Below are positions 1 to 51,579 of a stretch of DNA of 64,000 nucleotides, piece by piece. The position numbers and the translations under genes were made by a program. The stretch lies in NCBI GenBank assembly GCA_964017235.1, contig OZ024927.1:47001293-47065292 (forward strand), in the 5' to 3' direction. The notes beneath the pieces are model-generated. The model saw only the letters and a program-made list of their open reading frames with translations, was not told the origin of the DNA and ran no database searches. Position 1 is the stretch's first letter. Every line of letters begins with the position of its first letter. The stretch comes from Sabellastarte sp. h YS-2021 (Eukaryota > Annelida > Polychaeta > Sabellida > Sabellidae).

Positions 1-2135
1 AACTCTGTTCCTTTGATAAAAATGCCCTTTATATCTGGGTTATGAAGAATTAGAACTGTTAATATCTGACCACCAATAATGTACAAATAAGGAGAAATTG
101 GGTCGCCCTGCCTGCAGCCTCGGCCGATTTGAATTGAGTTGGATGCATATCCACTCTGTATAACTCTTGCTGTAACTTCATTATTAAGCAGTTTGATCCA
201 TTTTATATAACTCTCACCAAATCCAAGGAACGACAAGGTATTGTAAATAAAATTCCACGATATAGAATCGAAAGCCTTTTGGAAATCAATGACCATGAGT
301 TGTCCAGTTATATTCGCTTTTTCTGTGAAATCCATAATATCGTACACCAACCTAGTACTTTCACCAATGTATCTACCAGATATAAAACCATTTTGAGAAC
401 TATCTATAAGGTAATTTAAATGTGGCTTCAAGCGATTTGCCAAGGAACTTGATACAATCTTATATATAACAGACAGCATAGACAGAGGTCTCCAGTTCTT
501 AATAAGTTCTCTGGCTTTATCCTTTTTTGGCAAGCATGTTATAACACACTGCCTCAAAGAAGCGGGTAACAGACCACTCTCAAAACTGAAGTTAACAGAA
601 GCGCAGATCCAAAACTTGAGGTCCTTCCAAAATACTTTCACAAATTCGGCTGGAAAACCATCCACACCAGGAGTTTTATTATTTTTCATATCTTTTAAAG
701 CAGCCCCAAGCTCTGAAACAGTTAATGGTTTTTCAAGATAGGCAGATTCAATTTTTGTAAGTTTTCGTATTGGAATATCACTTATTAACTTTTCCAAATT
801 TATGTCAGTGAGTTGATTGTCAAAGGATTTAAATAGGTTAGAATAATAATTTGCAACTTCTTGCAAAATTCTTTGCTGGTCTATGCAGATACTACCATCT
901 TTCAAAATTAACTTTTTTATAGTTTTTTCAATATAATTTTGGTGTTCAAGTGAGCAAAAATATTTACTCGGTTTCTCCCCTTCTTTTAGCCATTGAACTC
1001 GTGACCTTACTTGATGACCTTGCATTCGACTTTCCCTGATATTTAATAGTTCAGTTTTTTTTTCTTCTAGAAGAGTGATATTCAATGCATTACAACTTTC
1101 CTCTAATGACTGTATTTCTTTTTGCAAATTTGACTCAATTTCAGTTTCTTTTTTCTTTTTTATAGTTGCATATTTAATAGTCTCTCCTCTGATTCGAAGT
1201 AACAACATTTTTAAGAAAGAGTTGTAATTAATTGTTAAGTGTATAGAATCATCAGATAAAGATTCAAAAGTGTCTAAATTGTACAGGGGAACTGCATATT
1301 TGCGTTTTTCGTCTTTTATCCAAGTTCTGACAAGGGACAGGTAGTCCTTGTCTTTTAATAACATGGTGTTAAATTTCCACAAGCCAGGGCCACGAGTGAA
1401 ATTACTAACCAACAAAGACATCATCAACAGGGAGTGGTCGGTACGATAGCCAGCTTTTATATCAATATTACTTATTATATCCGTTAGGCTTGAAGAAACA
1501 ATGAAATAGTCAAGTCTAGCTTGCTTGATAGGATTTTTTTTGCGCCATGTGTATCGTTTACGACTTGGATAAAAATATCTATAAGCATCTGTTAAGGAAC
1601 ACTCATTAATCATGTTTTTTAAAGCATTTTGTGCTCTTGGATTATTCAAGTGTAGATAGTTAAAGTTATCTAATGCTGGGTTTAAAGTAACATTTAAATC
1701 TCCACATAAGATGACATAGTCTTGGTCAGATTTATTGATCATGTCCGTGACACAATGGAAAAAATTTGGCTCATCATGATTTGGCCCATATGCATTTATT
1801 AATAATATAGACATATGATATATCTGGAGCTTAAGACATACCATATTTCCATCAGTATCTGTTTTAGTTTCGATGATGTGATACTCAAAAGTATTATTAA
1901 TCAAAATAGCAACACCCCTTGAGTTAGTACTGATTCCACTTTGATAGATTTCACCTTTCCACAGTGTTCTTGTTAAGTTAATATCATTTCCAACTAGATG
2001 TGTGTCTTGCAAGCAAATTATATCTGCACAAGTTAACTTCAAGTAATTAATAACATCTTTTCGTTTGGTCATGTTTCTTAGCCCTTGACAGTTCATGGAA
2101 ATTATTTTGACTGTTTGACCTAATTTTGTAGTCAT
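1..2135 (-). CDS. LINE-A ORF2, endonuclease plus reverse transcriptase (partial)
   Basis: Open reading frame of about 711 codons running from an ATG at 2135 off the left edge with no stop seen. The first ~230 residues are an APE-type endonuclease: an early SMNCQG motif, ICLQDTH, ILCGDLN, the TWRKKNPIKQARLDY block and GYRTDH. The reverse transcriptase follows with NNKTPGVDGFPAEF, NWRPLSMLSVIYK, SSQNGFISGRYIGESTRLV, VIDFQKAFDSISW and GRGCRQGDPISPYLY. The window ends before the expected F/YADD box. It would nick target DNA and prime reverse transcription of the element's own RNA. The motif order and the later zf-RVT of its sister LINE-B place it in the L1/Tx1 group. The endonuclease has D where most relatives have E in the QETH motif, a change shared with LINE-B. 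Confidence 0.9.
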   Translation of the reverse strand, partial: MTTKLGQTVKIISMNCQGLRNMTKRKDVINYLKLTCADIICLQDTHLVGNDINLTRTLWKGEIYQSGISTNSRGVAILINNTFEYHIIETKTDTDGNMVCLKLQIYHMSILLINAYGPNHDEPNFFHCVTDMINKSDQDYVILCGDLNVTLNPALDNFNYLHLNNPRAQNALKNMINECSLTDAYRYFYPSRKRYTWRKKNPIKQARLDYFIVSSSLTDIISNIDIKAGYRTDHSLLMMSLLVSNFTRGPGLWKFNTMLLKDKDYLSLVRTWIKDEKRKYAVPLYNLDTFESLSDDSIHLTINYNSFLKMLLLRIRGETIKYATIKKKKETEIESNLQKEIQSLEESCNALNITLLEEKKTELLNIRESRMQGHQVRSRVQWLKEGEKPSKYFCSLEHQNYIEKTIKKLILKDGSICIDQQRILQEVANYYSNLFKSFDNQLTDINLEKLISDIPIRKLTKIESAYLEKPLTVSELGAALKDMKNNKTPGVDGFPAEFVKVFWKDLKFWICASVNFSFESGLLPASLRQCVITCLPKKDKARELIKNWRPLSMLSVIYKIVSSSLANRLKPHLNYLIDSSQNGFISGRYIGESTRLVYDIMDFTEKANITGQLMVIDFQKAFDSISWNFIYNTLSFLGFGESYIKWIKLLNNEVTARVIQSGYASNSIQIGRGCRQGDPISPYLYIIGGQILTVLILHNPDIKGIFIKGTE

Positions 2136-4247
2136 TTAATCAGAAAAGTTCCAACTGGTAAGCATAAATACATATACACATACATGTATATATATATATA
2201 CAATTTCAACTAACAGTACCATTACTTGAAATCTAATACTGACCAAACTGTCAAATATGAAACATATGAAATACAGTTAATTATCTCATACAAACAAATA
2301 AACAGTTCTGCTGCATTTCTCTGATATGCTTTTGGATGTAACAGATATTGGGAAGGAAAAAAGAAAAACATTGTAAACATATTAAAAACAATAATAGGAA
2401 TTGGGAGAAAAAGAAGGAAAAAAAAGATTTATAAGCCAAAACAGGAACTGAACCAAAAAAAAAAAAAAAAACTTTTTGAACAAGTGAAAACAGATAAGCC
2501 AAACGGACAAAAAAAAAAAAACAACAAAAAAGGAATATGAAACATGGTGGTTAAGCAATATGGAAAATAATCTTTGGTATGTGACATGTTCACAAAATAT
2601 GATTTATACATTTCTCATGGGGTAAATTACTACCTAGGTTCGTAAATCTCAGAATACTGAGAGAGCTTACTAGCACATCATACTGGCCTTTTTAAATTAA
2701 AGTTATTATTCATAATTTGGTAATCAAAGTAATCACAATTACAAAGTAACCAAAAGAAACAAGAGTTTAGTCAATTGTCCAACAAAAACTGAAGCTAGTA
2801 AAGACAAGTCTGGTTATCAATATATTAATATTTAGGTTAAAATAAAGTTTATCAGTTAATATATTCATTTGTAATCACTGATATGGTTAGTTATAACTTG
2901 AAATTAAATCCACACAATAGACAAAATTGACCTAAAAATATTTTGTCATACCATTGCAATGATTGCTTACATTACTCTAAATAACTCAAACTTACTATAC
3001 AAATAATGGGAAGGGGTAAGAAGTAAATAGTCAATGAAATACATACTATGTAGTTTCAATGAAAAAGGAGGAAATTGAACAGGGAAAAACCTTTACAATT
3101 TATGTTACATCTAATTCAGTATCAAGAGCAGTGATTACTTACATTACTCTAAGTACTCAAACTTGACACAGAAAAAAACCCCCCTGAAATCTGGCAAAAT
3201 TCCAAAAAATAAACAAAAAGAAATTCTATTAGCAATTAATACTATATGAAAGGTTCATATACCACTTTTTGTATTTATTGACAGTTTTAATTCCAGATAT
3301 TAATTGAAATTCTGTCTTACTATAGACAACACTTTTCCAGGTTCATGTGGATCTTCCATTTATAGAGATCTGTAGCAGTCTACTGGCAACTCGTTTACAA
3401 TCAAAACTCTATCAAACTGCCAATACTGGGAAGAAATAAAAGACTTAGAAAAATTATCACTTTGAGACAAAATATAACCCTATGTCAAGTGATATCATAC
3501 AAACTATGAAAAGTAATAACTTTTGAAAGAAAATGTAACCAATATTAAGTCTTGCAGTACAAACTTTGAAAAGGTTTATTTGATGGTGTGTCTAATTAGA
3601 CTTAGTGACGTATAAGTGCCTTTGTATCAAATAAATTCAGTGATTATGATGTTTCATGAATAGAACATAAGTCTACCAAAGAAAGGTTCAAAAGGGAAAA
3701 ACCTGTACAATTTACAGTATGTCAAATCCTCATCTGTAGCAGTCTACTGGCAATCTTTAACTTGTTTATGACCAAAACTCTATCAAATTGCCAATATTAA
3801 GAAGAAAAAAAAACACTCACAAAAATTATCACTTTGAGACAAAATATAACCCTATGTCAAGTGATATCATACAAACTATGAGAAGTATTAACTTTTGAAA
3901 CAAAAAGTAACCAATATTAAGTCTTGCAATACAAACTTTGAAAAGGTTTATTTGATGGTGTGTCCAATTAGACTTAGTGACATATAAGTGCCACTACATT
4001 AAATGAATTCAGTGATTATGATTTATTAATAGAACATAAGTCTACAAAAGAAAGATTCAAAAGGGAAAAACATGTACAATGTACAGTACGTCAAATCCTC
4101 ACCAAGCTAGAATTAAACTGTGTCCAAGATATTACAGCAATTATAAACCTTGACAAATTGAAAAAGAAATCTGCTAGCAATAATTCTAGTTGAAAGGTAC
4201 ATAAATGATACCACTTTTGGTGTATGAAACAGGTTTTACTCCATACT
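2136..4247 (-). other. LINE-A inter-ORF spacer
   Basis: No ORF worth calling lies between ORF1 and ORF2. The stretch is A-rich on the plus strand (T-rich in the transcript), with several long homopolymer runs near 2400-2520. It contains a two-copy tandem repeat (3368-4099) and weaker, shorter copies of parts of it near 2940-3160. A 2.1-kb spacer is very long for an L1-type element. LINE-B has a comparable spacer that also carries tandem repeats. Confidence 0.6.
3368..4099. repeat. 364-bp tandem repeat, two copies
   Basis: The block starting ATCTGTAGCAGTCTACTGG at 3368 restarts at 3732, and both copies end near GTCAAATCCTC. The copies are highly similar, with scattered substitutions and small indels. 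They lie inside the LINE-A spacer between ORF1 and ORF2. Confidence 0.85.
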
Positions 4248-5459
4248 TTATTTTATACTCTGTCTTACTCTGGACAACACCTGCCCCGCTTTATTCTGGC
4301 CCTTCCACTTGTTTTTATCGAAAATGTTCTTGTCACGCAATGGAATGCCAGCCCCCCAATATCTGTCTGTAGGATTAGCCTCTACCAAATCAGTGGTTCC
4401 TGTGTTCCTTAAGAAAGATGCAAGCTCTGGATTTTGACTGAATTTGGCGTACATTGCTTGGAACATACACTCATCTTGCACAGCTTTCCATTTCTTTGGA
4501 TCGTAATTATGGATGTGTTTCCCAAAGAATTTAGCTTGAACTGGGGATTTACACTGCAATATCTTTTGGGCTGTTTCATTGTCACTGAAGTAGACTGCTT
4601 TCTGATACATGTAACACTGTTCAGAACTTATAAATTGTTTTCCCTCAAAGCTCACAGGGACTTCAAAGTGGTTACTTAATGGGGATTCCTTGCTAAAAAA
4701 TGCAGTTATGCCATTTACAGCTGGAGTAAACACATGTTTGGGTTGAAGTTCTGGATATGGTATTGCAGATATATTATCCACTGAATACTTTTTACCACCA
4801 AGTAAAAGGCTGTCTACTAGGAGTTTTGGGTTTTGATTTGGACAAACATTGAGTGATTTGAAAAAAGTAGGAACAATCACCTTCCTTCGGTCTAGAATTT
4901 CCTTGGGGTAATCCTCAGATACAAATATACCCCTTTTCTTGAGTGAACTCCTTTTATCCATAATGGCTAGTTTGTTTTTATAATGGTGCAGCCTCATGAG
5001 CACTGGTCTTGACTGTGAAGTGGCTGGACCAACAAAATGTATTCTTTCAATGTCACTTGAATTCAAAGCAATTTGCTCTTCTGATAGCACCATTAAAACT
5101 AAATCCAACAGATGTTGGCCTTCCTTAAGTTTTATTCCCCACAGTTTGATATTATTTTTTCTGCTGAAGTTTTCCAGATTTAATAGTTTATCCATTACTG
5201 ATCTAGTTTCAGCTTTACAAAGTTTCAACTGGTTTTCTAAACTTTTAATCTTGGCATCTTGTTGTTCCACAGTTGCTTGCAAATCAGTTAGATTCTTAAG
5301 CTCTTCCAGTGCATAGTCCACACTGTTTTCTATTATGTCAAGCTTATTCAATTTATCCTCAATAGGCTTTAACTTTTCTTCAAGAATTTTTGTAAATGCT
5401 GTAATCATTTCTGATTTTTCTCTTGAAGCTCTAGTGTCTTTGGTTTCCTTGCTAGACAT
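4248..5459 (-). CDS. LINE-A ORF1: coiled coil, L1-type RRM, C-terminal NADAR domain
   Basis: Intact 403-codon ORF. Residues ~25-95 are heptad-like (KILEEKLKPIEDKLNKL). Residues ~98-182 match the RNA-binding RRM of L1 ORF1p/transposase_22 (ENFSRKNNIKLWGI; later DIERIHFVG and RPVLMRLHHYKNK), followed by a short CTD-like segment to ~230. Residues ~253-402 match the NADAR/YbiA family: a start like FFSKESPLSNHF, SSEQCYMYQKA with Glu280, the SPVQAKFFGKHI block, DRYWGAG at 365-371, and a closing GQNKAGQVLSRVRQ. NADAR proteins act on N-glycosidic ADP-ribose, including removing ADP-ribose from guanine. The fusion is seen directly; its role in the element is inference. The ATG at 5459 gives a full coiled coil. 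The reading frame has no stops or shifts. Confidence 0.88.
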   Translation of the reverse strand: MSSKETKDTRASREKSEMITAFTKILEEKLKPIEDKLNKLDIIENSVDYALEELKNLTDLQATVEQQDAKIKSLENQLKLCKAETRSVMDKLLNLENFSRKNNIKLWGIKLKEGQHLLDLVLMVLSEEQIALNSSDIERIHFVGPATSQSRPVLMRLHHYKNKLAIMDKRSSLKKRGIFVSEDYPKEILDRRKVIVPTFFKSLNVCPNQNPKLLVDSLLLGGKKYSVDNISAIPYPELQPKHVFTPAVNGITAFFSKESPLSNHFEVPVSFEGKQFISSEQCYMYQKAVYFSDNETAQKILQCKSPVQAKFFGKHIHNYDPKKWKAVQDECMFQAMYAKFSQNPELASFLRNTGTTDLVEANPTDRYWGAGIPLRDKNIFDKNKWKGQNKAGQVLSRVRQSIK

Positions 5460-5890
5460 TTTTATGATATTTATTTTTTACACACATTAAACAGCAAAGG
5501 TTTAAAAAAGTGAAGTTCTAGATTATATTAATGTACTTGTACTTGACCCCACTAAAGAATAAAAGTCTGTGTTTGGCTGCACTTGTAAACTAGAAAGGAA
5601 TTCAATATAGAAGGCTAATTAGTGAAAAACCCTCCTAAAACAAATACTTTAACAGGGTCCTTGAGTACACTTCAATGTTTAGATATTCCAAGCCATATTA
5701 AATAGTCAGAAATTCAACAAAAGTTTGTCACTGTTTTTCTAGCTATCCAGACATTTTATTTTGTAGAACATATGTCCATAGAATCCTTGTGATATATTAT
5801 TAATGTTTACCTACTTTTTGTGCCAACTGTAACATTATTTCCACAAGCTTTTTTACATTTTTCCTCTATTGCAAAAACACACCTTGCTAA
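5460..5890 (-). other. LINE-A 5' untranslated region (probable)
   Basis: About 430 bp upstream of ORF1 with no coding signal on either strand. It is taken as the LINE-A 5' UTR because the next recognisable sequence upstream (5942 onward) is DIRS gag. The exact start is not proven, since the matching 3' target duplication is outside the window. Confidence 0.4.
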
Positions 5891-5932
5891 CTAAAGAGAC
5901 ATTTGCATTCCCTAAAGAGACATTTGCATTCC
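5891..5932. repeat. 21-bp exact tandem doublet at the LINE-A/DIRS junction
   Basis: CTAAAGAGACATTTGCATTCC occurs twice back to back (5891-5911 and 5912-5932), at the point where LINE sequence meets the truncated DIRS gag. It may be a 5'-end feature of the LINE or part of the target duplication. Confidence 0.85.
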
Positions 5933-5941
5933 CTTTGATTC

Positions 5942-7828
5942 TTAATCGGAGATCTCCTCGTCAGCCCTCTTGATCACTGCATCAGGGAAGAGGGTCGGGA
6001 AATGTAGAGGGGCTGTTCTAAGTGCAGCCACAGTGTCCAGCTTGATCCCACTCTTGACGTGTGTGAGGTAAGCACCTCGCCTAGCCAAAGTCAGGTTCCC
6101 CATTGAGATGAAAAACAATTCACTTAGGTGCTCCATGGTTTTGGCAGCTGCTTGCGTAATGCTGGAGTTAAAGTCCATGAGATGCTGTAGTTTGTTCATG
6201 GCACCTGATCCCTTTGAGGTTTTCCTTTACTCTCACAACATAGGGGTTTAAGCTGGCTCTGCATGTCCTGCTGCACTTTGAAGAGGCACTTGTTAAAGCT
6301 GGCAGCCTGGTTGCAGATGAATGTAGCCTCTCTGGGCGACTTCTCCCATCTTCGCAGAGCTTCCTGTGAAATGCGTCTGGATGCAGGGGGGTAGAAGTCA
6401 GCCCGGATTGTCTAGCTATCCTACTGGAGCAACTGTTCAGTTTTGAAGACTCCAGTTCGAGACAGCGGCAGGGTCAGCTTTGTGGTCGGATGACAGCCCA
6501 TACCACTTGGACTGCGACTTTGCTGTTCTCAAAAACTGGTCCATCAACAGGCCACTGGCCTCGGAACTCTGGGAGGGGTACCCCTCAGAGTTAGGTTCAG
6601 TTTAGTAATCTTCTTACAAAGCCAATCTTCAGTAGGCATTTGCACCGACACTTTCCCGGGAGTAGCAGCTTTGGGACTATCTAAGTCTGGAATGTCTGAC
6701 CAACCCATATATGCTCTTATGCTCTTCATTGTTTCCCTGTAACTTTGTTCTTCTGAGGGCATCTGGTCGGGCTCCATAGCAGTTAAATCCAGATCATCTG
6801 ACAGTTCCCCTTCCTCAGCATAGAGGTCGACTGGTGGTCAGTCGGAAAACTCACTGCCAGTGCCGGAACTTAGACTGAATACACTGTCCTTTCTATGTTG
6901 GTCAAGTGAAGGGGAGCCGGTGTCGGTTGCCACAGTGGAACCTGGCCGGTCGACATGAGGTTTGCTGTGAGGTTTGCCAGTGGACTTTACAGTGGTCGGT
7001 ACTAGAGAGTCCAGAGGCTGGAGGTCGGCTCCGGTTCGTATGAGGCTGGCTGGTGGACTGTTGCTTGAGAGCAGATGCGTCTGTACCAGTGCGCCTGTGA
7101 GATCTTGAGGTCGGTTGGTTGGTGATAAGCTGGCTGGCTGGTTGATGCAGAGTTGCAGAGGAACCCTTTCTGTTGCGCTTTGGTGATGATGAAGTTGACT
7201 TCTGTCCATCGGATGTGAGCTGGCTGGCTGGTTGATGCTGGGTAGCAGAGAAACCCTTGCCAGTGCACTCTGTAGCAGTCTGTGAATCCGACTCCGGCTG
7301 GCTGGCTGACTGATGCATTTCTGCAGAGAAGTCCTTACCAGGCGCCCAGTAGGATGAAAAAAATGGCTCCGAATCTCTGGGAATGTTAGCAGGTGGAGAA
7401 CGAGGAGGAGTGACCTTAACTTCAGATGAAAATGCTGGTCGCATTTTCGTGTCAGTAAAACTACCATCTGAAGATTTCTTGGATTTAGAAGGCAACTTTT
7501 CCTTTTTGGCTTTCTTTTCCGGAGGCACAGAAGAAGTAGGTGGAGACTTGACAGATTCTTGCTGGCCAACAACCCCAATGACGGACACACTTGCAGGGTC
7601 AACAAGTTCAGAAGTTTCTTCAGTGGGGGTGGCAATTTCCGATTTTCGTGCCTCACGTTTCCCCTTCTTTAATTTACAGGAAGGGGTAGATATCTGAGCA
7701 AGTTGCTCTGGAGTCAAAGCCAAACAAAACTTACAAGTAGTGGTGTCCTTGCTTTCAACACAAGGGTTCTTGTCCTTATTCTTCTCGCGACAACGTGCAC
7801 AGTAAGAGTGCTGATCAAAATTCGGCAT
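5942..7828 (-). pseudogene. DIRS-A gag-like ORF, fragmented
   Basis: Three minus-strand pieces read as the gag of a DIRS retrotransposon. The N-terminal piece (7828-6902) opens with a Cys-rich segment (SYCARCREKNKD...CKFC) and continues as a Lys/Ser/Pro-rich region with repeated HQPASQ units. The middle piece (6777-6544) has SYRETMKSIRAYMGW and a VSVQMPTEDWLCKKI block. The last (6199-5942) has NLTLARRGAYLTHVKSGI and AALRTAPLHFPTLFPDA, a conserved DIRS gag C-terminus. The pieces are in different frames, so the gene is broken. Downstream RT, RNase H and recombinase are missing where LINE-A abuts. The 5' terminal repeat lies just upstream (7971-8183). Confidence 0.75.
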
Positions 7829-35754: not shown

Positions 35755-37604
35755 CTATACCCAAAGTGATTCGGATCCGGAATCAGTGACTCGAGTAAGT
35801 GTGACTGCTGCTATAGACAATGGCATTGATTCTGGCAAAGTCCTGATTTATAATGTTAATGGTGTTGATGATAAATTTGCAAGTTCAATACTCCATGCTG
35901 CCCAGTTCAAGAAGGTGGGGGTGGGTAATCTGCATGTTAACACTAAAATACACAAAAAATGGCATTCCCAGTCCATGGGACGTGCATGGTCTTGTCAGAG
36001 CCACTGGTGTTCCCAATTTCATTAAAGCTAGAGTTCCAATCAAATCACAACTTAATGTTCAAGCCTGGAAAGACAATCTCAAAGGTTATTGGGACCAACA
36101 GTTGTGTCAACTGGTGGAATTCGGTTTTCCTCTAGACTTTAACAGAAAATGCGACCTTAAGTGTGACAAGGGTAACCATAAGTCTGCCTTAGAGTTCCGC
36201 GGGGATGTGGACGCTTACATAGCAGAGGAACTTGAGTTTGGCGCTCTCCTGGGGCCTTTCAGTGAACCTCCTATTCCCTCTAGTCATTCTTCACCATTCA
36301 TGACGTGGGAAAAACCCAATTCTGACAGGCGTCGAGTTATAATTGACTTGAGCTGGCCCCTAGGGGCTTCTGTCAATGCTGGTATTGACAAGGAATCGTA
36401 TCTTGACAGCAAATTTTGCCTTACCTTTCCCACAGTGGATCATATCACTGATGAGCTTAAGAAGCTGGGTCGTGGCACCCTGTTGTACAAGATTGACGTT
36501 TCGCGTGCGTTTCATCACGTCAAGGTAGATCCAGGTGATTATGACCTGTTGGGGCTGGATTGGCAGGGCCATTACATCGACACGTGCGTTCCGTTCGGGA
36601 CACGTCACGGGAGTCAGATCTTTCAACGCCTCAGTGACGGCGTCAGGTACGTCATGCGTCGAAAAGGATATGACATCATTGATTACATTGACAATTACGT
36701 CAGCGTCGGAGTCCCGAACATTGCGTCAGCGTCGTTTTCTGCTCTCATTGACCTCATGAGTGACCTTGGCTTAACCATAAGCCAGAAGAAGCTGGTTCCC
36801 CCTTCGACGCAAGTCACCTGTCTCGGCGTGCTCATTGACACAGTTAAAGGAACTATTTCCATACCACCTGACAAATTGCGTGACGTCACGTCAACCGTGC
36901 GTCAATGGCTTTCGCGTGACGTGGCTTCTAAGCGTGACCTACAATCCATATTGGGTCTCTTACTGTACGTACACAAGTGCGTCAAGCCTGCGTGTATTTT
37001 TCTAAATAGAATGCTTGACCTACTCAGATTTGCCCACAGCCGTCAAAAAGTGATGCTTACCCCAGATTTCAAAAGAGACCTCAAGTGGTTCGCAAAATTC
37101 CTGCCTGTGTATAATGGGGTGTCACTATATGACCACAGACCCATTGACATCTCCCTTGAGTTGGACGCTTGCCTCACAGGCCTGGGGGGTCGTTCTGGAA
37201 ATTTCATTTACCATCTCCCTATTCCCATGGGTTACAGAAATTGGACCATTGTCCATTTGGAAATGGTGAATATACTTGTGGCAGTGAGGCTCTTCCATCA
37301 CCAATGGGCGTCGAAAAAAGTGTTGATACATTGTGATAATGCTGCTGTCGTGATCGTTCTCAAATCTGGTAGGACCAGAGATCCTTACTAAGGCGCATGC
37401 GCGCGCAACGTGTGGTACGTCGCCGCAACGTCAGATATAGATTTGCAATACACCCACATTAGGGGTATTGACAACAGGGTGGCTGATGCCTTGTCCAGAT
37501 GGCAGGGCACTGTAGACCAGTGGCAGCTGCTGGGTTTGCATGTGTTGCACCCAGTGTGGCTCCAGGTATCACATGATTTGCTGGAGTTAGATCCAGAGTT
37601 GTAA
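35755..37604 (+). pseudogene. Ngaro-like pol (RT-RNase H), copy 1, broken
   Basis: Starts in one frame with an acidic stretch and GKVLIYNVNGVDDKFASSIL, shifts at an A6 run near 35955, then continues (to 37391) through EFGFPLDFNRKC, TWEKPNSDRRRVIIDLSWPL, LYKIDVSRAFHHVKVDP, PFGTRHGSQIFQRLSDG, IDYIDNYVSVG and CLGVLIDTVKGTISIPPDK. The RT catalytic box reads YIDN, with Asn at the second Asp. RNase H follows with DISLELDACLTGLGG, IVHLEMVNILVA and IHCDNAAVV. An in-frame TAA at 37389 interrupts DPY/ACARN, after which the same frame runs to 37604 (HIRGIDNRVADALSRW). Confidence 0.8.
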
Positions 37605-37733
37605 TTTTAGTTACATTGTGTAATGTGTATTATGTATGAAGATATGGGTGTATAATGGCTGTAGGCAGGCCCTGCCTGCTATCTTATATCGATACTGAGG
37701 GATGCTACGCTTTGTGTTGTAGATACTGAAGCA

Positions 37734-38693
37734 ATGACGTCACTTTCTGCAAAAGCTACATCAAGATTACATGAAGCCGTCCGTCCCAAGACACGAGGGG
37801 CCTACCTGAACATGTTCAGAACTTTTGTAGCCTTCTGTATTCATATCAAATGTGTCCTGGCTAAAGTTGATATACAAGTAGTCTTCGAATGTTTAGTCAT
37901 AAATGGTTGCTCAACTTCAATGGTTGAGAATTATGTGTCAGCCATAAAGGCTCATTTTGTCTTACATGACTTGTCTTTTGAAGTGTTTGATCATCCAAAG
38001 CTAAAATATTTTCTCAAAGCCCTCAGAATAAACAGGCCATTATCAGTTAAGTCTCACAACATTATATCTCTAGACAGATTGGCCCTGATCTCAACTGCGT
38101 GTAAAGATTTCTCATCAGGTTTACTGTACAGAGCTGTATTCTTAGTGGCCTTTTTTGGCTTTTTCAGACTGTCAAATTTGGCTCCTCATGCTATCTTAAG
38201 CTTCGATGATACTAGGCATCTAACTGGGGATGACATATTCTTCACAAAATACTTTGTAAAAGTCCTGTTAAAGTGGACTAAAACTATGCAGACTCGAGAT
38301 CGAGTCCAATGTGTGACACTTCCCAGGCTTCATGACAAGTGTATTTGTCCCTATGCAGCTTTAAAAGCATTATTCAAGACTTATCCCATGTCCTCAAATT
38401 CATCACTCTTTCAAATCAGTACTACACGTGGTTACATCACATTAACAGACTCCAGGGTGCGTAAAACGTTAAAGAGTATTAATCAGGCCCTGGGTTTGAA
38501 CCCAAGCTTTCATACATTCCATGATTTCAGAAGATCTGGGGCTACTTTTGCCTATAATTCCCACATTCCCATCCAGGAGATCAAACGACATGGTACTTGG
38601 TCGTCAGACTGTGTCTGGCGTTATATGCAATCTGACCACACATCAGGGGAGAGTTTAGCTGTAACCTTGGCTTCTACAATAAATGCTTTATAA
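37734..38693 (+). CDS. Tyrosine recombinase of Ngaro-like copy 1
   Basis: Intact 319-codon ORF, 130 bp after the RNase H frame. The N-terminal SAM-like core binding half (TRGAYLNMFRTFVAFCIH) is followed by the catalytic half with the YR signature: Arg145 in FFRLSNLA, His263-x-x-Arg266 in FHDFRRSGATFAY, His286 in KRHGTWSSD and the nucleophile candidate Tyr297 in VWRYMQS. It would integrate a circular DNA intermediate, which is why these elements leave no target duplication. All catalytic residues are present although the upstream RT is mutated. Confidence 0.88.
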   Translation: MTSLSAKATSRLHEAVRPKTRGAYLNMFRTFVAFCIHIKCVLAKVDIQVVFECLVINGCSTSMVENYVSAIKAHFVLHDLSFEVFDHPKLKYFLKALRINRPLSVKSHNIISLDRLALISTACKDFSSGLLYRAVFLVAFFGFFRLSNLAPHAILSFDDTRHLTGDDIFFTKYFVKVLLKWTKTMQTRDRVQCVTLPRLHDKCICPYAALKALFKTYPMSSNSSLFQISTTRGYITLTDSRVRKTLKSINQALGLNPSFHTFHDFRRSGATFAYNSHIPIQEIKRHGTWSSDCVWRYMQSDHTSGESLAVTLASTINAL

Positions 38694-40032: not shown

Positions 40033-40782
40033 GTGGACTTTAGGTCTCAGGATAATCTGTCAGGAGCCATCGAAATCGACACTGCAAGTCGCATGGGAAG
40101 ACAAATTGGACAAAGAGGTAGGCCAATGTTAGTTAGGTTCACAACTCACAAAGGTAAAGATGTTGTTATGAAGAAGATCAGATCAGAGAGGACTGGTGGA
40201 CTGATCAAGATCTCGGACCAATATCCGGCCACAATGAAAGAAAAACGAATGGCTCAGATAGATGAACTTAAACACACCAGGGATATGTACAAAGACAGTG
40301 GGAAAAAGGTAGCACTGGTAAAGGATAAATTAATGGTAGGATCACAAGTTATATTGGATGCTTTTGAGAAAAACAAGCTGCCAATTACTCCAACATCAAA
40401 CCCTCCATCACTCAAAAGCATAAACAAAACACAAATAGAAGATATTAATGGAAGTCGCTTCATGGGTTTCTCCTCCAAGGTAACCTCAGTACGACACGCC
40501 GCTGAAGTTCGTGAAGCACTGTACCAATCTCCGCATGTCGCCCAAGCAGACCACACCATCTACGCCTATGTTGTAACAGACGAGTCGGGGATGAAAATTA
40601 CTGGTCACAGTGACGATGGCGAGTGGTCAGCATCAAAGATTCTGATGAACCAGCTCTTAGAAAAGCAAATTACCAATGCATTCATTGCAGTTTCAAGAAT
40701 TCATGAGGGCCCAAATCTTGGGAAAATGCGTTTCAATATCATATCAAGGGTGGCCACTGAAGCGATAGAGATGTTGCTCTAG
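40033..40782 (+). CDS. LINE-B ORF1 (5'-truncated): RRM plus IMPACT/YigZ (UPF0029) domain
   Basis: 249 codons open from the insertion boundary; the GTG at 40033 is not a true start. Residues ~12-65 are the second half of an L1-type RRM (IDTASRMG, RPMLVRFTTHKGKDVVMKKI, GLIKISDQYP), and a CTD-like stretch follows to ~125. Residues 141-246 match the UPF0029/Impact N-terminal family: SRFMGFSSKVTSV, HTIYAYVVTDE, ITGHSDDGEWSASKILMNQLL (the DDGE signature at 194-197) and AFIAVSRIHEGPNLGKMRF, corresponding to the VVVSRWYGGILLG strand/loop of IMPACT and YigZ. IMPACT proteins bind GCN1 and restrain GCN2 signalling. That the domain is fused to the ORF1 is seen; any anti-stress role is inference. Confidence 0.85.
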   Translation: MDFRSQDNLSGAIEIDTASRMGRQIGQRGRPMLVRFTTHKGKDVVMKKIRSERTGGLIKISDQYPATMKEKRMAQIDELKHTRDMYKDSGKKVALVKDKLMVGSQVILDAFEKNKLPITPTSNPPSLKSINKTQIEDINGSRFMGFSSKVTSVRHAAEVREALYQSPHVAQADHTIYAYVVTDESGMKITGHSDDGEWSASKILMNQLLEKQITNAFIAVSRIHEGPNLGKMRFNIISRVATEAIEMLL

Positions 40783-41159: not shown

Positions 41160-41785
41160 CTCTTCCTCATTCGCTGATACTGTCAGATTCACTTACAAAG
41201 GGTTTCTGTGCTCTGCAAAAAACAGTTGTTGCAACACGACCAGGAGCTACCCCGATTAAGATACTTCACCATTTAAAAACCAATCCCATCATTCTCGACA
41301 ACTTCAAGGTAATAGTTCTCCATGTGGGTACTAATTGGCTAAGCCAGAAGTCTGAGTTTTCCTTGTACCTCCAATTTGTTAACAATATCATTTCTGAAGG
41401 AAAATTCAAAGAACAACTGCATCGACTGAATCCACCTCCTGCAAATGGTTCAGCAGTAGCATTCAGAGATACCTTTCAGAATATCATTGATTGTATAAGA
41501 TGCAGAAATCCGGAGGCAAAAATTCTGGTGTCAGCCATAATTCCAAGAAAATGGGACCATGACCGCAGGCATTTAGTCCGTATCTCCTACAATAATATTC
41601 TGAAAAAATTAGCCGATGGAAAGTCAGTCTTTTTTGTACAATCTTACAGTCCCTTTTTTGACAGCCAGAGAAACCTGAAATCAAACCTCTTTTCATATGA
41701 CGGTCTTCACTTTTCTAAAAAAGGATCAACAGTACTTAGAACCTTCTTATGTGATAAAATTGATAGGCAATTAAGAACAAATTAG
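41160..41785 (+). CDS. LINE-B SGNH/GDSL hydrolase frame
   Basis: The frame is open from 41126 with no upstream ATG; coding similarity starts just after a TTTTTCTTTACAG site at 41159. SGNH blocks are present in order: LILSDSLTKGF (catalytic Ser), VIVLHVGTNWL (Gly and Asn) and DGLHFSKKG (Asp and His), with ILVSAIIPR between. All four catalytic residues are retained. SGNH esterase-like domains are known in ORF1 of CR1 and other LINEs. Here the domain sits in its own frame downstream of ORF1. Either it is joined by splicing, or it is re-initiated, or its start was lost. Confidence 0.75.
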
Positions 41786-42772: not shown

Positions 42773-43104
42773 GAACTACTTAACTGTAAATGGTAAAAAA
42801 AAATCCTTGGTTATGATAACTGTTGGTTATTAAATTAGCACGGATAAATGAGTACATAGTAGTACAGCTCCATTGTGTTAAACCTTATTGTGACACTTTA
42901 TGTTATTCTATTTTATCTCTATTTTTCTCTGTTTGTTTGTTTTGTTTGTATATATTGTTTTTGTTAAATGGTCAAAAAACAATAATGTCTTTAATATGTC
43001 ATTTCATAATCTAATTGATGTAATCAGCTGCTCGAAAATTAGACTTGAAATTAAAAGTATCATTAACATTGTGTTACATGGAGCTCTCTACCACAACTTC
43101 AAAA

Positions 43105-46100
43105 ATGTCTTTGCATAACACAATTAAAGTGTCATCGGCAAATGTTCAGGGCATATGGGATATGAATAAACGGATTGATGTGATTACATACTTACTAAAG
43201 GATGCTAATATAATTTGTCTTCAAGACACACACTTAACAAAGTTAGATACACATTGTTTAAGAACCAATTTTCCAAATTGTGAAATATTTATTGAAGGCA
43301 ATAGAACTAATGCTAGAGGGGTCTTAATTCTATTGAAAAAGAACTTTGAATACAAAATAAAATACTCAATGAGTGATAATACAGATAATTTACTGCTTCT
43401 AGATCTGGACTTGGGGGAAATAAGTCTGAGGTTAATAAATATATATGCCCCAAATACCGATAATCCAAGTTTTTTCAAAAAAGTTTCAAATTTTGTTGAG
43501 GAATCATCAGAAACATACTCCTTATTATGTGGAGATCTAAACCTTGTCCTTGATCCTAAGCTGGACTCATACAATTATGTAAGTATTACTAACCCAAAAG
43601 CCAGGGAAGTCTTATTACAGAATATGGATAAATACAATCTTACAGACATTTTTAGACAGCTACATCCAAAAGTTAAGCGATATACATGGCGACGAAAAAA
43701 TCCTATAAAGCAGGCCAGACTGGATTATGCTATTGGTACAAACAGTTTAATGGATATAATCCAGTCTTGTAAGATACTGCCTGGTTATAGAAGTGACCAT
43801 TCTAGATTAGAACTAGATCTGCTTCTTAATTCATTTACAAAAGGCAAAGGCATTTGGCGCTTAAACTGTAGCTTACTAAGAGATCCTGAATACTTAAAAT
43901 GTATTAAAAATTGCATAAGTGAAGTCAGACAACAATATGCCATTCCGGTCTACCAATTTGATAATTTAGACAAAATAGAGGATAAAGACATTCAGTTTAC
44001 AATATCAGACACAATGTTTCTCGAAATGCTCCTGTTGAATATAAGGGGTAATTCTATAAGATTTTCTAGTAGAGCTAAAAGGCAGCAGAATGATCAAGAA
44101 AAAGAATTACAAGAAGAAATTGCAAACCTTGAAAGCAGGGAAGATGAAGAAAACTTCGGACTAATTAATACCAAAAAGGAAAAACTCTCTAAACTACAGG
44201 GGTTCATGATTAGATCTAGAGTACAGGATATTTTACTAAACGAAAAGCCGACAAAGTTTTTTTGTAACCTAGAAAAAGCCAAATATATTGACAAGACTAT
44301 TAAAAAGGTTACCTTGCAAAATGGGAAAATTATCATTAACCAAAGGGATATTCTTAATCAAGTAAAATGCTTTTATGCAGATCTATTCTCATGTAAAAAC
44401 ATAGATGAGGACAATCTGAATGATTTTAAAAATACCCTACCAAACTCAAAAAAACTCTCACCCGAAGAATCAATAGGAATGAGTGGCCCTTTGACTATTA
44501 CAGAGTTAAGTAATGTGCTAAAAAGCATGAAACATAATAAAACTCCAGGACTAGATGGCTTTCCTGCCGAATTTTATAAAATATTCTGGAAAGAATTACA
44601 AACATTTATACTAAGGGCACTAAATGAGAGTTACCAAAAAGGGATTTTACCTCCAAGCTTCCGTCAAACAGTTATTAGTTGTTTGCCTAAAGGAAATAAA
44701 CCACGGGATGATCTAAAAAATTGGAGACCAATTTCGTTAACTAGTGTTTTATACAAAATGGCAACTAGTGCAATTGCATCACGTCTTAAAAAAGTTCTCC
44801 CTGATTTAATTTCAAATTGTCAAACCGGTTTTATAAAAGGTAGATTTATAGACGAAAGTACCAGATTAGTTTATGATATTATGAACTACACCGAAAAAAA
44901 GCAAAAAACAGGGCTACTGATGTTAATTGACTTTGAAAAGGCCTTTGATTCAATTTCCTGGAAATTTATGTATAAAGTCTTAAATCATTATAATTTTAGC
45001 AGCGAATTTATTAAATGGATTAACATATTTAACACAGAGATAACAGCTACAGTATTGCAGGTAGGTTTTTTGTCAGATTTCTTCCCAATTAAAAGAGGCT
45101 GTAAGCAGGGGGATCCAATAGCGCCTTATCTTTTTATTATATGTGCACAAATATTGTGTGAAATGATATTAACAAATAAAAATATCAAAGGGATAAAAAT
45201 TGGATCAGATGAATTCAAAATCTCTCAATTTGCTGATGACACCACATTGTTTATGGATGGTTCAGAGAGCTCCTTGCAGTATACATTGAATGTGTTAGAA
45301 ATTTTTGGATCACTATCAGGGTTAAAAATGAATTTATCAAAAACTAGGATGCTTTGGATAGGTAAAAAAAAAGGTTGTAAAGAAAAAATTAACTGTGGTA
45401 GACTTTTAAACTGGGATAGTAATAATTTCAGTTTATTAGGAATTACCTTTGATCTAAATCTATCAAATATACCACTGATCAACTATAACAATGCCATAAT
45501 TAAAATAGAAAACACCATAGCTTCATGGAAAAAAAGATCTTTAACACCCTTAGGTAAAATCACAGTTATTAAGTCTCTAATATTGTCTCAGTTGAACCAC
45601 CTTTTTATGTCAATTCCGCTACCTGGAAAAGGTTTCTGTGAAAATCTCAATAAAAAATTATACAACTTTGTTTGGGATGACAAACCCGAGAAAATTAAGC
45701 GTGTGATCCTATCTCAAAATAAGGTAAACGGAGGGCTCAAAATGCCAAACATTGTTAATTTTATAGATGCTTTAAAGTGTACTTGGATAAGAAGAATTCT
45801 TGTTTCACCTAACAGACCTTGGGTCAGGTTGTTTGAATCATCATATTGTTCTTTAAACGATTTGATTAATTACGGTCCCCGTTGGGGGATCAAAGTTAAG
45901 GATAATATTCAGAACGATTTTTGGAAAAAAATATTTTTGACATGGAATAATGTTTATAAAACCTGTCAATTGAAAACTGAGTCAGATATATTCAATACTC
46001 CTCTATGGTTCAATAGTAAACTATCGAATAGCAACTTAGTAAAAAACAATTGGAACAATCAAGGAATTTCTGTTATTGGACACATTGTTGATTCAAACCT

Positions 46101-46899
46101 TCAGATATTAAAAAAAGAAGATATTGAAAGCAAATATAATTTTCGGATTAATAACTTTTTAGACTACTTCCAATTGCATTCAACAGTGAAAAAATTCATA
46201 TCACAAAATTCTGCATTAGTAACCGAAAGGTCTTTCTTTTCACAACCGTTCATTCCCCATCATATTTCCATCTTGCTCAACTGTAAGCATGGTTGTAAAG
46301 GTATCTACAATATGATTAATGTACAAGAGGTGGAAAATAAATATAAGATGAAATGGAATAAAGATCTAAAATTGAATATCGATAATTCAACATGGAAAAG
46401 TATATTTAAACAGATTTTTTATAATATCCAAGACAATTCCTTGATATGGTTTCAATATAGACTGATCCATAGAATACTTGGCACTAAAGATTTACTCCGT
46501 AAAATGCAGTTAGAAGATTCAAACATCTGCAGAATATGTCAGTGTGAAACAGAATCCTTGATGCATCTGTTTGTTCATTGTTCACATGTTGTTAACCTAT
46601 GGTCAACCTTGGAGTCATTGATATACTCTTCTACATGTAAAAGATTAGTATTTTCACAAGAAGATATTATCTTAGGCTACCTATACAATGATAATAACTA
46701 CTATCCTGTAAATACCATCATAGCTGTCACAAAGAGTTATATTTTCTCAAGTGCAGTCCATGGGGCCATCCCAAACATCAATGCTTTGAAGCACAAACTT
46801 CAGAAACAATTTAGAGATCAGCTTCATGTAAATATGGAGATGAATAGGACTGATAAATTCAACTGTCAATGGCTCCCATACAGAAAATTATTTGTATAA
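43105..46899 (+). CDS. LINE-B ORF2: endonuclease, reverse transcriptase, zinc-finger
   Basis: Intact ORF of 1264 codons, starting at ATG 43105 (a TTA-initiated extension upstream is not used). The N-terminal ~235 residues are an APE-type endonuclease with SSANVQG, ICLQDTH, NIYAPN, LLCGDLNLVL, ARLDYAIG and YRSDHSRLE. The RT follows with NKTPGLDGFPAEFYK, NWRPISLTSVLYK, QTGFIKGRFIDESTRLV, LIDFEKAFDSISW (~609), KRGCKQGDPIAPYLF and QFADDTTLF (FADD ~709-712). The C-terminus has a zf-RVT knuckle CRICQCETESLMHLFVHC (~1140). All RT catalytic Asp are present; the endonuclease has D in place of E in QETH. The copy could in principle still be active for ORF2. Confidence 0.95.
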   Translation: MSLHNTIKVSSANVQGIWDMNKRIDVITYLLKDANIICLQDTHLTKLDTHCLRTNFPNCEIFIEGNRTNARGVLILLKKNFEYKIKYSMSDNTDNLLLLDLDLGEISLRLINIYAPNTDNPSFFKKVSNFVEESSETYSLLCGDLNLVLDPKLDSYNYVSITNPKAREVLLQNMDKYNLTDIFRQLHPKVKRYTWRRKNPIKQARLDYAIGTNSLMDIIQSCKILPGYRSDHSRLELDLLLNSFTKGKGIWRLNCSLLRDPEYLKCIKNCISEVRQQYAIPVYQFDNLDKIEDKDIQFTISDTMFLEMLLLNIRGNSIRFSSRAKRQQNDQEKELQEEIANLESREDEENFGLINTKKEKLSKLQGFMIRSRVQDILLNEKPTKFFCNLEKAKYIDKTIKKVTLQNGKIIINQRDILNQVKCFYADLFSCKNIDEDNLNDFKNTLPNSKKLSPEESIGMSGPLTITELSNVLKSMKHNKTPGLDGFPAEFYKIFWKELQTFILRALNESYQKGILPPSFRQTVISCLPKGNKPRDDLKNWRPISLTSVLYKMATSAIASRLKKVLPDLISNCQTGFIKGRFIDESTRLVYDIMNYTEKKQKTGLLMLIDFEKAFDSISWKFMYKVLNHYNFSSEFIKWINIFNTEITATVLQVGFLSDFFPIKRGCKQGDPIAPYLFIICAQILCEMILTNKNIKGIKIGSDEFKISQFADDTTLFMDGSESSLQYTLNVLEIFGSLSGLKMNLSKTRMLWIGKKKGCKEKINCGRLLNWDSNNFSLLGITFDLNLSNIPLINYNNAIIKIENTIASWKKRSLTPLGKITVIKSLILSQLNHLFMSIPLPGKGFCENLNKKLYNFVWDDKPEKIKRVILSQNKVNGGLKMPNIVNFIDALKCTWIRRILVSPNRPWVRLFESSYCSLNDLINYGPRWGIKVKDNIQNDFWKKIFLTWNNVYKTCQLKTESDIFNTPLWFNSKLSNSNLVKNNWNNQGISVIGHIVDSNLQILKKEDIESKYNFRINNFLDYFQLHSTVKKFISQNSALVTERSFFSQPFIPHHISILLNCKHGCKGIYNMINVQEVENKYKMKWNKDLKLNIDNSTWKSIFKQIFYNIQDNSLIWFQYRLIHRILGTKDLLRKMQLEDSNICRICQCETESLMHLFVHCSHVVNLWSTLESLIYSSTCKRLVFSQEDIILGYLYNDNNYYPVNTIIAVTKSYIFSSAVHGAIPNINALKHKLQKQFRDQLHVNMEMNRTDKFNCQWLPYRKLFV

Positions 46900-48281: not shown

Positions 48282-50584
48282 CTAGTGAAAATTTGGTACT
48301 AACTGTTTGAGAGCTGCATAATTATCACTGGTGTAAGACCACCTAGACAACAAGTTAGCAATACAATTACTTTTGCCCCTAATGTGACTAAAGACAAAGT
48401 TTATAACAAATTTTGCTACCCAGAGCCAAATGTTTCTAGCACATGCTGCCAGATAAGGATCTTTCATCCTGCCAGATTGCAAAACTCAGACCACTGCACC
48501 GCACAAAAGATTTGAACCGATTTCTTTGACCACTGGTGGCAGAACATCTTTGTGGCCACTAGGATATTGACCATCTCTAAGTGGCCAATATTTAGGCTTC
48601 TAAATCCTAAAGGAATTTTTAGGTGATACACCTGACTTCCATATATGCCACCCAGGCCCTGAAGGCACGCATCCAGATGAGTTTGACAGACAAGGCGACA
48701 CCATTGAAATGAGGAAGAAAATTTTTAAACCATCTGAGGTCTCTATAAAAAGCAGGAGTGAGTTTTATGTAAGCAGCATTGTGAGTATTTCTAAGGAGTT
48801 CTAACATCCTATTGAGGAAGAATCTTGCAGGTTTTACACATTTACGTATGTACAATAAATGGCCAAGGAGGGATTGCAATTGCCTTTTTGTACAGGATTT
48901 TTTACCCTGCCAGTCAATGACCATGTCTGAGATGGCTTGCATTTTTTCAGGGGGTATGGAGACAGAACCATTTGCAGTGTCAATTTTTATGCCCAAACAG
49001 GTAACTTGAGTACTTGGCGGTACTAATTATTTCTCACTAATAGTGAGACCTAAGTGGTGGAGTAAACTTACCAAGGTTTGAAAAGAAGCCTCAGCCTCAG
49101 TAGGTGTACCAATATAATCATCCACATAGCCGACAATTTTGTGACCATTTTTTTCTCATGATAAATCTGACGGCATCGCTACATCTCTGAAAAATTTGGG
49201 AACCATGCCTGCTCCAATATGGGACACAGGTATCAAGGTAAACATGACGCCAGGAGAGACCTAACAAGTCATAATCCAATGGATCCACCTTTATATGACG
49301 AAAGGCTCTGGATATATCCACCTTATAAAGTTGACAGCCCCTGCCAATTGCTTTAACTTGGTCAGTGATATGGTCAATAGTTTGGAGACTTAAAGTGAAG
49401 TCTGTGCCGAGATAAGAATGCTTAACTATGCCACCATTAACAGATTCGCCAATTGGCCAACTCAAATCTACAATTACGCTACGATTTTCTGAGTTCGGTT
49501 TTTCTCTTGTCAAAAATGGGGATATATGCCCACCAGTACATGGATGTCCCTCAAAGGGACCCACAATGGCTTTATGGTGAAGTTTCTCATCGAGATAAAC
49601 CTCTATGTCCCTGGGAAAATTTAGAGCTGATTTGTGGTTTTCCCCCTTCCACCTAAGGGGAGAATTCCGATTGAAATCGAGAGGGAAGCCAAAATAAAGT
49701 AAGTTAATAAGCTGAGAATCCCAATAGTCATGTAATTCAGCTTTCCAAGCTTCTAAATTTAACTGTGAATCGACTTTCAACCTTGCTCCTAGATAGTTTG
49801 GTTTATGGAAGCTTTTGACAATATTATGAGCTTTTATAGGGCAGTAATCCGAAATAACATGTACTTCAGTACTGTCAGATAAACGAAATTCCCCAAGGGG
49901 AATAAATCCAAACTCAAAATCTGTTTGAATTTTCCACATTTTGTACGATTTTGCATTACAATTTGCAACATTTTCAATGTCATGACACGGCCGGATAAGA
50001 ATGGAATTAATATACTTATCCTCAAGTCCGTTAATGTCATATAACTTTATTTTCTCTGATCCGACTTTGGCAGCATTTTCCACATTTTTCCTGTTTATAA
50101 TATCAGCTTCTGCTTTTTTACTACATATAACCCGCTTAATATCGCTGCAAGGGACAATAGATTTACTATGGTCTGCATTTACAACGACAGGGACAGTGAT
50201 AGCCTTTCTACTGGCTTTGCCAGCAGCAACCTCTGAGTACAAACGATCATCACAGAAGGAAAGTTGAGGGACATTTTTCTTTTGTCTGCCGCCATCTTGG
50301 GCAAAACTGTACTGACTGGGATTAACAGACGCCTGGTTTGTCACAGAACTATGAAACCATTTACATGCTTTCTCTTTTTTCATAGCCATCATAGCTTCAA
50401 CATCACATAGTTTGTAACTAGAATTAATTACAAAACGCGTTCTGTACTTTTCAACTTTTGCAGAAGTTTTCACACAACTGTTAATATCTTTTGACATTGA
50501 CACATTTTGGTTTTCACCAGGATCATGAGACAAGAAGCTGTCCAAAGGTTGGGACACCTCAGGACAGCCCCTCCTTTTCTGCAT
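48282..50584 (-). pseudogene. Ngaro-like pol (RT-RNase H), copy 2, broken
   Basis: Overlaps gag by 26 bases in another frame, as gag-pol pairs often do. 50584-49118 carries a Lys-rich linker, KIKLYDINGLEDKYINSIL, YFGFPLDFNRNSP, LTREKPNSENRSVIVDLSWPI, LYKVDISRAFRHIKVDP and SRHGSQIFQRCSDAVRF. At an A7 run (~49150) the frame shifts; the following frame has an intact YVDDY box and then a TAA in place of a Lys. 48996-48619 continues with IDTANGSVSIPPEK and RH-flanking helices. 48482-48282 ends RNase H (DPYLAACARNIW, HIRGKSNCIANLLSRW), with the CDN active-site segment damaged just before it. Confidence 0.8.
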
Positions 50585-51579
50585 GATTTAACTGCTTACC
50601 TTTATCTAGGCAGTGAGCACAGATGTGTTTATGTATCTTACCATTTGTCTCATGGTCCTTAGTGAAAGTACATGACCCAGTTTGAAACATTTTACAGAAC
50701 CAAGGACGTTTGCCAGAATCATGACCATTCCTACTGAAATTTTTAGGGCTTTGCATGTGCTTTTGGGCATGTGCTCTTCTAATTCTGTCGATATGACATG
50801 TGTCATCCCAGGAAACCGCCCCCCTTTCCATGTCACAAAGTAACACTGCATGTGACGCTTTCGCACCTTGCCAACTGAAATCAGTGGCGTCCTCCATGAG
50901 GTCTGACAGATAATTTAACATGTTTTCCCTAGTCTTGTTGGTTTTTTCCTCTAGAATGTTTCTGGCAAATCCCTGAACCCATTGACTCCATGACAATTGA
51001 TCATATGATACTCTTTGTTTGCTATTACCACCTAAAATGGTGTCATGGGGCCAGGCCACTTTCTTATGTACCAAAATATCAACATTACCACCACGTTTTG
51101 ATTTGAACTTTTGCTTACCCTGTCCTTGTGGAGTAAAAGTACAATCTTCTAATTCACGTAACCTATTATCAACCTGTCTCTGAATGTCCCTAGCAGATTT
51201 CAGATGACTCAAACTTGGTCATCTGATGATGAGTCACTATCTTTACTGTGGTTAACTTGTGAAGATTTTTGAGCCAACGAGAGACTACTTATCTTTTTGG
51301 TGTGTCCTGTGCAATGCTTGACCTCAGGAAACTCGTCCTCCATATTGTCCAATCTGTTGTTGACTTTCTGTAGTTGAATCAATATTTGTTGCTGAACATC
51401 TGATGTACCACTAGGTGAAGGTTGACGCCTCTTAGGTGACCCAGAAACTGAACTGTCTGTAGACAGTCTGGTCCTAGCTCCCTCTTCGTCATCTGGCATG
51501 TATTTGCATTTTTTCCAGTAGGTGGCACATGCCTTCCCAGGCATTTGGAACACTTTGACTTTTGACCGGGCATGTCCAA
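50559..51579 (-). pseudogene. Ngaro-like gag, copy 2
   Basis: The first part (to 51209) is Ser/Asp-rich with QQQILIQLQKVNNRLDNME, a short coiled coil. The second part (51212-50559), one base out of frame, has SYDQLSWSQWVQGFARNIL and a C-terminal zinc-finger-like region: WFCKMFQTGSCTFTKDH and HKHICAHCLDKGKQLNH. This is the nucleocapsid-like end of Ngaro gag proteins. The TTTGA junction at 51209-51214 looks like a one-base loss. Confidence 0.7.

Follow-up and report, generated by a model that had tools for sequence, protein, structure and literature searches.

What is a NADAR domain doing at the end of a LINE ORF1 protein, and has the element been selected to keep it? The question is raised by a locus in a stretch of 64,000 nucleotides of contig OZ024927.1 of the annelid Sabellastarte sp. 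(assembly GCA_964017235.1), hereafter the window. A sequence-only reading of this DNA had claimed an uninterrupted fusion of NADAR to an ORF1 with a coiled coil and an L1-type RRM, and had called for a NADAR profile search and for superposition of a predicted model on YbiA. Both analyses bear the claim out. The domain gives a significant match to Pfam PF08719 over the whole of its length (E 3.3e-40, profile positions 11-162 of 163). The predicted model of the protein resembles a NADAR crystal structure as well as L1 ORF1p; coiled coil, RRM and CTD follow one another in it as they do in L1-type ORF1 proteins, and on structure comparison its C-terminal part adopts the YbiA fold. Thus, we conclude that the ORF1-NADAR fusion is real. 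Its parts lie as follows:

4248..5459, minus strand: ORF1-NADAR, 403 amino acids (stop codon counted in the coordinates)
5163..5432, minus strand: coiled coil, residues ~10-99, a single long helix (H10-99) in the predicted model
4731..5156, minus strand: L1-type RRM and CTD, residues ~102-243
4251..4730, minus strand: NADAR domain, residues ~244-403, with active-site residues E280, K287 and E360

The element around this frame extends from the 5' side of ORF1 past the left edge of the window, and comprises the following further features:

3..2135, minus strand: ORF2, with APE-type endonuclease and reverse transcriptase, 711 amino acids inside the window, the frame open past the left edge
2136..4247, minus strand: long ORF1-ORF2 spacer, compared across 13 family loci
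3368..4101, no strand: direct repeat of ~370 bp (88%) within the spacer, present too in the related copies L009 and L010
5460..5929, minus strand: 5' untranslated region; the common 5' end of L009 and L010 corresponds to about 5900, and a short extra duplication reaches 5929
5930..5943, minus strand: 5' copy of a 12-14 bp target-site duplication (TSD), the 3' copy lying after the poly-A run, outside the window

An adjoining locus of 2300 bases (L049) completes the left end: ORF2 reaches its stop ~1.7 kb beyond the edge, for a total of 1273 amino acids; beyond the stop come a short 3' UTR, poly-A and the second 12-14 bp copy of the TSD. Poly-A and TSD around this copy are the footprint of target-primed reverse transcription, neither ORF1 nor ORF2 is broken, and the element is apparently a full-length, recently inserted LINE. 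The sequence-only reading had overlooked the minus strand, the ORF2, poly-A and TSD, and also a second fused ORF1 in the window, with UPF0029, described below. The best PDB match of its ORF2 is human L1 ORF2p (8uw3, E 1.9e-68). An L1-like ORF2 with APE endonuclease and reverse transcriptase, a poly-A end and a TSD are the marks of the L1/Tx1 group, and we regard the element as probably an L1-like non-LTR retrotransposon of the Tx1 clade, a name taken from the oyster elements of PMC12477816. The spacer holds no third conserved ORF, in that none of the frames of at least 70 amino acids on the element strand of the 13 loci recurs between subfamilies. It does contain, at 3215..3361, an incomplete duplicate (72% identity) of the sequence at 4161..4310, where the NADAR frame has its 3' end and adjoining flank.

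The same reading had proposed a search for further copies, naming as its counter-case a single copy with host exons flanking it. Searching the 1.79-Gb assembly, we took 2758 first-look candidates to at least 103 scored matches, which run from 99-100% down to 35% identity, mostly cover both halves of ORF1-NADAR and, in 83 cases by manual count, have no internal stop. Twenty of the 103 (L009-L028) were extended to 10 kb; these are mostly full-length open frames by choice, a preference that biases the sample against decayed NADARs. ORF2 sequence lies downstream on the same strand at all twenty, quite unlike the counter-case, with only its first part inside the extended locus at L013 and L017, and only the endonuclease part found at L020. 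The ORF1-ORF2 spacer measures 0.8-2.9 kb at most of these loci; at L013, L017 and L021 ORF2 starts 4.3-6.3 kb past ORF1, the long spacer of L013 being due to a 3.3-kb insertion relative to L012. ORF2 is open in one frame of 1260 or more amino acids in L012, L022, L023, L026 and L027, and in frames of 1212 and 1145 amino acids in L025 and L028 respectively, while at the remaining extended loci ORF2 is interrupted or cut by the locus end.

Near-identical units were found on different chromosomes (L009 and L010, 99.1% over 7.9 kb; L012 and L015, 99.4-99.5%), with a common start ~440 bp before ORF1 (438 bp in the alignment of L009 with L010) and a poly-A end; L011 is shortened at its 5' end by about 285 bp. 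In a scan of 14 loci made without a chance control, seven had an exact TSD of at least 10 bp, 12-18 bp long at five of them (L016, L018, L022, L023 and L025). The other seven had none by exact matching, among them L015, where a 14-bp copy with one mismatch can be seen by eye. In a search of public proteins, NADAR was carried by 16 of the 18 other proteins recovered, and 15 public NADAR proteins have ORF1-like sequence at 25-88% identity. In the remaining NADAR protein, P0018, the N-terminal part is very unlike theirs. The two proteins lacking NADAR are P0010, whose sequence ends short of that domain, and P0019, an ORF1-like protein.

That the fusion is either under selection or recently acquired had also been proposed, with a dN/dS test of the NADAR part among the suggested checks. 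From 38 distinct open ORF1-NADAR frames we dropped L005, which is truncated, and compared the remaining 37; ten of the 666 pairs were usable, having dS between 0.02 and 1.2. NADAR dN/dS was 0.12-0.39 in all ten. For RRM plus CTD, eight of these pairs gave 0.15-0.34 and one, a very close pair, 1.78; in the last the ratio was undefined. At dS near 0.35 the NADAR values were 0.12-0.14, in three pairs that all share L035 and so constitute one independent comparison. Fisher tests on NADAR gave p values from 2.3e-2 to 2.5e-9 in six of the ten pairs, which overlap and amount to about three independent comparisons. Across 640 diverged pairs, mean identity was 51% for NADAR versus 43% for RRM plus CTD, and NADAR was the higher in 599. 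Thus, we conclude that NADAR is under purifying selection in this LINE family: its low dN/dS and its better conservation than RRM plus CTD indicate that breeding copies have been selected to keep it. As the active-site residues are kept in the copies examined (see below), the domain probably helps the element to survive in its host.

Residues were mapped by alignment onto the NADAR of Phytophthora nicotianae, and all 12 residues named in its paper fit, at an offset of 2. E43, K50 and E125 of that protein correspond to E280, K287 and E360, each of them invariant in 37 of 37 copies, including the Glu280 that the sequence-only reading had singled out. D130 (D365) and W133 (W368) are present in 36 of 37 copies; K75 (K310) is Lys in 35 and Arg in two, the R79 position is basic (Lys or Arg) in 33, and the Y84 position is Phe in 32 and Tyr in five. 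D86 of the oomycete protein is kept in none of the 37 and R93 in one, and these differing ligand-contact residues may mean that substrate preference differs from that of the oomycete NADAR. The last-strand catalytic residue is Glu (E360; E125 in P. nicotianae) rather than Asp or His, the mark of the YbiA subfamily; together with the kept catalytic residues, this assigns the LINE NADARs to the YbiA type, and they look catalytically competent. To hydrolyse guanine-ADP-ribose, the C7 NADAR of E. coli requires the corresponding residues K95 and D171; its E88Q mutant is inactive, E88A changes little in vitro, and rescue from DarT1 depends on all three residues (PMC11543638).

How might such an enzyme serve a LINE? 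In human L1, ORF1p uses its coiled coil, RRM and CTD to form trimers and to coat the RNA of the element. By analogy, and from the predicted fold, we infer that the ORF1p of this element would coat its RNA as a trimer through the same three parts, each subunit holding one YbiA-type NADAR hydrolase adjacent to RNA and cDNA. NADAR would then take ADP-ribose off guanine bases of the bound RNA, the nascent cDNA or both, in cis, and host guanine ADP-ribosyltransferases would thereby be unable to block reverse transcription: the domain would act as a cis antitoxin. This, a fuller form of the protection of RNA or cDNA that the sequence-only reading had suggested, is our best explanation, and taken in full, as the ORF1 of a complete Tx1-like LINE with NADAR as a cis guanine de-ADP-ribosylase, it seems to us about evenly poised between right and wrong. 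Counted against it are the changes at D86 and R93, the ORF1-like P0019 that has no NADAR, and the inactivity of NADARs on RNA phosphate ends. ADP-ribosylation of such ends is made by Tpt1/KptA-like enzymes and PARP14. NADARs are the sole hydrolase family found to reverse ADP-ribosylation of guanosine bases on RNA, and they fail to remove ADP-ribose from RNA phosphate ends (PMC11833690). Removal of ADP-ribose from guanine is a plausible role, given the guanine-ADP-ribosylating enzymes of several clams: N2-guanine ADP-ribosylation of DNA was detected as an activity in six edible clams, and CARP-1 was purified from one of them (PMC11209040).

There are other possible explanations for the selected domain. 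One is that NADAR works at the target site, removing or binding PARP-made ADP-ribose at the endonuclease nick and so muting the damage response or directing the RNP to the nick. PARPs have been linked to L1 integration, the element encodes an APE-type endonuclease, and NADAR retains the core of its ADP-ribose pocket. We nonetheless think this explanation unlikely, given that the documented NADAR activity is on guanine-linked ADP-ribose and is absent on RNA phosphate ends (PMC11833690), and that we came across no report of activity on protein-linked ADP-ribose. We are similarly sceptical of a second explanation, in which NADAR acts in trans in the host cell to degrade soluble ADP-ribose derivatives or other N-glycosides, such as immune signals, RNA-repair by-products or riboflavin intermediates. 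The NCBIfam model TIGR02464 does label the window's NADAR domain a riboflavin-intermediate N-glycosidase, and a possible preference of viral NADARs for soluble derivatives has been suggested (PMC9503650). Against this, fusion to an L1-type ORF1p would be expected to tie NADAR to the RNP instead of leaving it loose in the cell, and for the NADARs of eukaryotic RNA viruses the same source favours macromolecular targets (PMC9503650).

A third explanation, that NADAR is a non-enzymatic structural or binding module of ORF1p, would accommodate the variability of some ADP-ribose contact residues. It is very unlikely in light of the three catalytic positions, which are invariant in every copy despite the mean NADAR identity of 51% in diverged pairs; with 24 of the 158 positions invariant, any three given ones would all be so with a probability of 0.003, although the catalytic residues are conserved superfamily-wide in any case. 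Finally, a chance fusion or a domesticated host gene is scarcely credible for a protein with at least 103 scored matches across many contigs, ORF2 sequence downstream at 20 of 20 loci, near-identical units on different chromosomes with a common 5' end and a poly-A end, and TSDs at the window copy and other loci.

The guess that NADAR in transposons had been described before proved right. Repbase ORF1 proteins of several Crassostrea gigas Tx1 LINE families apparently contain a YbiA-family NADAR, as reported in a 2025 paper on Ectocarpus (PMC12477816). Those elements are alike in having a LINE ORF1 with this domain; they differ, when compared by description, in that the passage concerned in PMC12477816 is a one-sentence mention, without analysis of selection, active site, ORF2 linkage or TSDs. 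NADAR in LINE ORF1 is thus already known, and what is added here is the evidence on selection and active site, the unlike ORF2 partners and the UPF0029 ORF1 described below. The same paper finds NADAR in Ectocarpus Gypsy elements and suggests a role in the processing of RNA intermediates (PMC12477816). These too are retrotransposons with a YbiA-type NADAR, but they are LTR elements that carry it on Pol, and they presumably acquired it independently of the LINEs. Passages on ORF1 and Tx1 in a paper on bivalve transposons make no mention of NADAR (PMC10294476). The NADAR of P. nicotianae (8bau) and YbiA of E. coli (2b3w) are alike in fold, 8bau also in catalytic residues, and differ in being unfused to an RNA-binding chaperone. 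Human LINE-1 shares the coiled coil-RRM-CTD fold of ORF1p as well as the ORF2p match, and differs from the window family in the spacer of 0.8-2.9 kb that most loci of the latter have; human ORF1p is not known to carry a NADAR. CR1/L2 LINE ORF1s with an esterase or PHD domain are comparable in their modular ORF1 and in likely ORF1 transfer between LINE lineages, and differ in their accessory domains and in belonging to another LINE superfamily (PMC4120745).

The partners of NADAR-ORF1 also vary within the genome. We built an ORF1 tree from 18 representative copies of this genome and 13 public proteins, and an ORF2 tree from 18 of 24 matched pieces (aligned length at least 300, or from the window). 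Locus L028 joins a NADAR-ORF1 (1267-2601) to an ORF2 (3364-6801; both in element orientation) whose lineage is unlike L1/Tx1 and whose reverse transcriptase is not closest to L1, the ORF2 start being confirmed in two further copies, L050 and L051. At a single locus, L019, the ORF1 belongs to the main clade and the ORF2 is closest to that of L027, a case to which we give no weight. In a weakly rooted tree of the NADAR domain, the stand-alone proteins P0025-P0028 group with a deep set of L027, L028 and P0012-P0017, outside the main clade; the positions of P0017 and P0018, both on long branches, are uncertain, and no NADAR donor can be named from this tree. A second NADAR family also seems to be dispersed in the genome: the top 38 of 150 scored NADAR matches (from 2705 candidates) are short frames of 167-179 amino acids, scoring 158-168 bits, on many contigs, and 35 of the 38 have no internal stop by manual count. 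At the one locus examined (L052 533..1036; C18:8625300-8626799) the short frame stands alone.

The window contains a second modular ORF1:

40033..40782, plus strand: LINE ORF1 remnant with a C-terminal UPF0029 (IMPACT/YigZ) domain, and with an ORF2 at 43045..46899, plus strand

Longer public relatives, such as P0032, have an L1 ORF1p-like layout plus the UPF0029 domain. We found no description of UPF0029 in retrotransposons in the open-licence PMC literature, and a LINE ORF1 bearing it is possibly undescribed. IMPACT functions in translation control, to which, by analogy, the ORF1 domain might be tied. A GDSL-like lipase/esterase ORF (41324..41785, plus strand; PF13472, E 4.7e-9) lies between the remnant and its ORF2. 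Elsewhere in the window, 35853..38693 (plus strand) contains two frames, one for a reverse transcriptase (RVT_1, E 9.9e-9) and one resembling a recombinase (Phage_integrase, E 1.8e-4, short of its cut-off). The frames at 49118..51212 (minus strand) resemble them by eye, 49118..50584 having no Pfam match at 0.01, and both stretches look DIRS/Ngaro-like.

A bolder reading, which we offer tentatively and consider possible if on balance doubtful, is that the ORF1p C terminus is a slot for exchangeable anti-host enzymes, filled by NADAR or, on a homologous chassis, by UPF0029, with NADAR-ORF1 joined also to an unlike ORF2; NADAR would be an antitoxin-like de-ADP-ribosylase that counters the host's own guanine ADP-ribosyltransferases, of which clam CARP-1 is an example. 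Antitoxin NADARs are known, as are NADARs of phages and viruses, and the part they play in animals is described as open (PMC11125620). Were the slot and antitoxin reading true, animals and their retrotransposons would be engaged in a conflict over DNA and RNA ADP-ribosylation like the one already described for bacteria and phages. A selected NADAR active site in a LINE family points to nucleic-acid ADP-ribosylation as a force acting on animal retrotransposons. It also shows that accessory enzymes can be mounted on an L1-type ORF1p.
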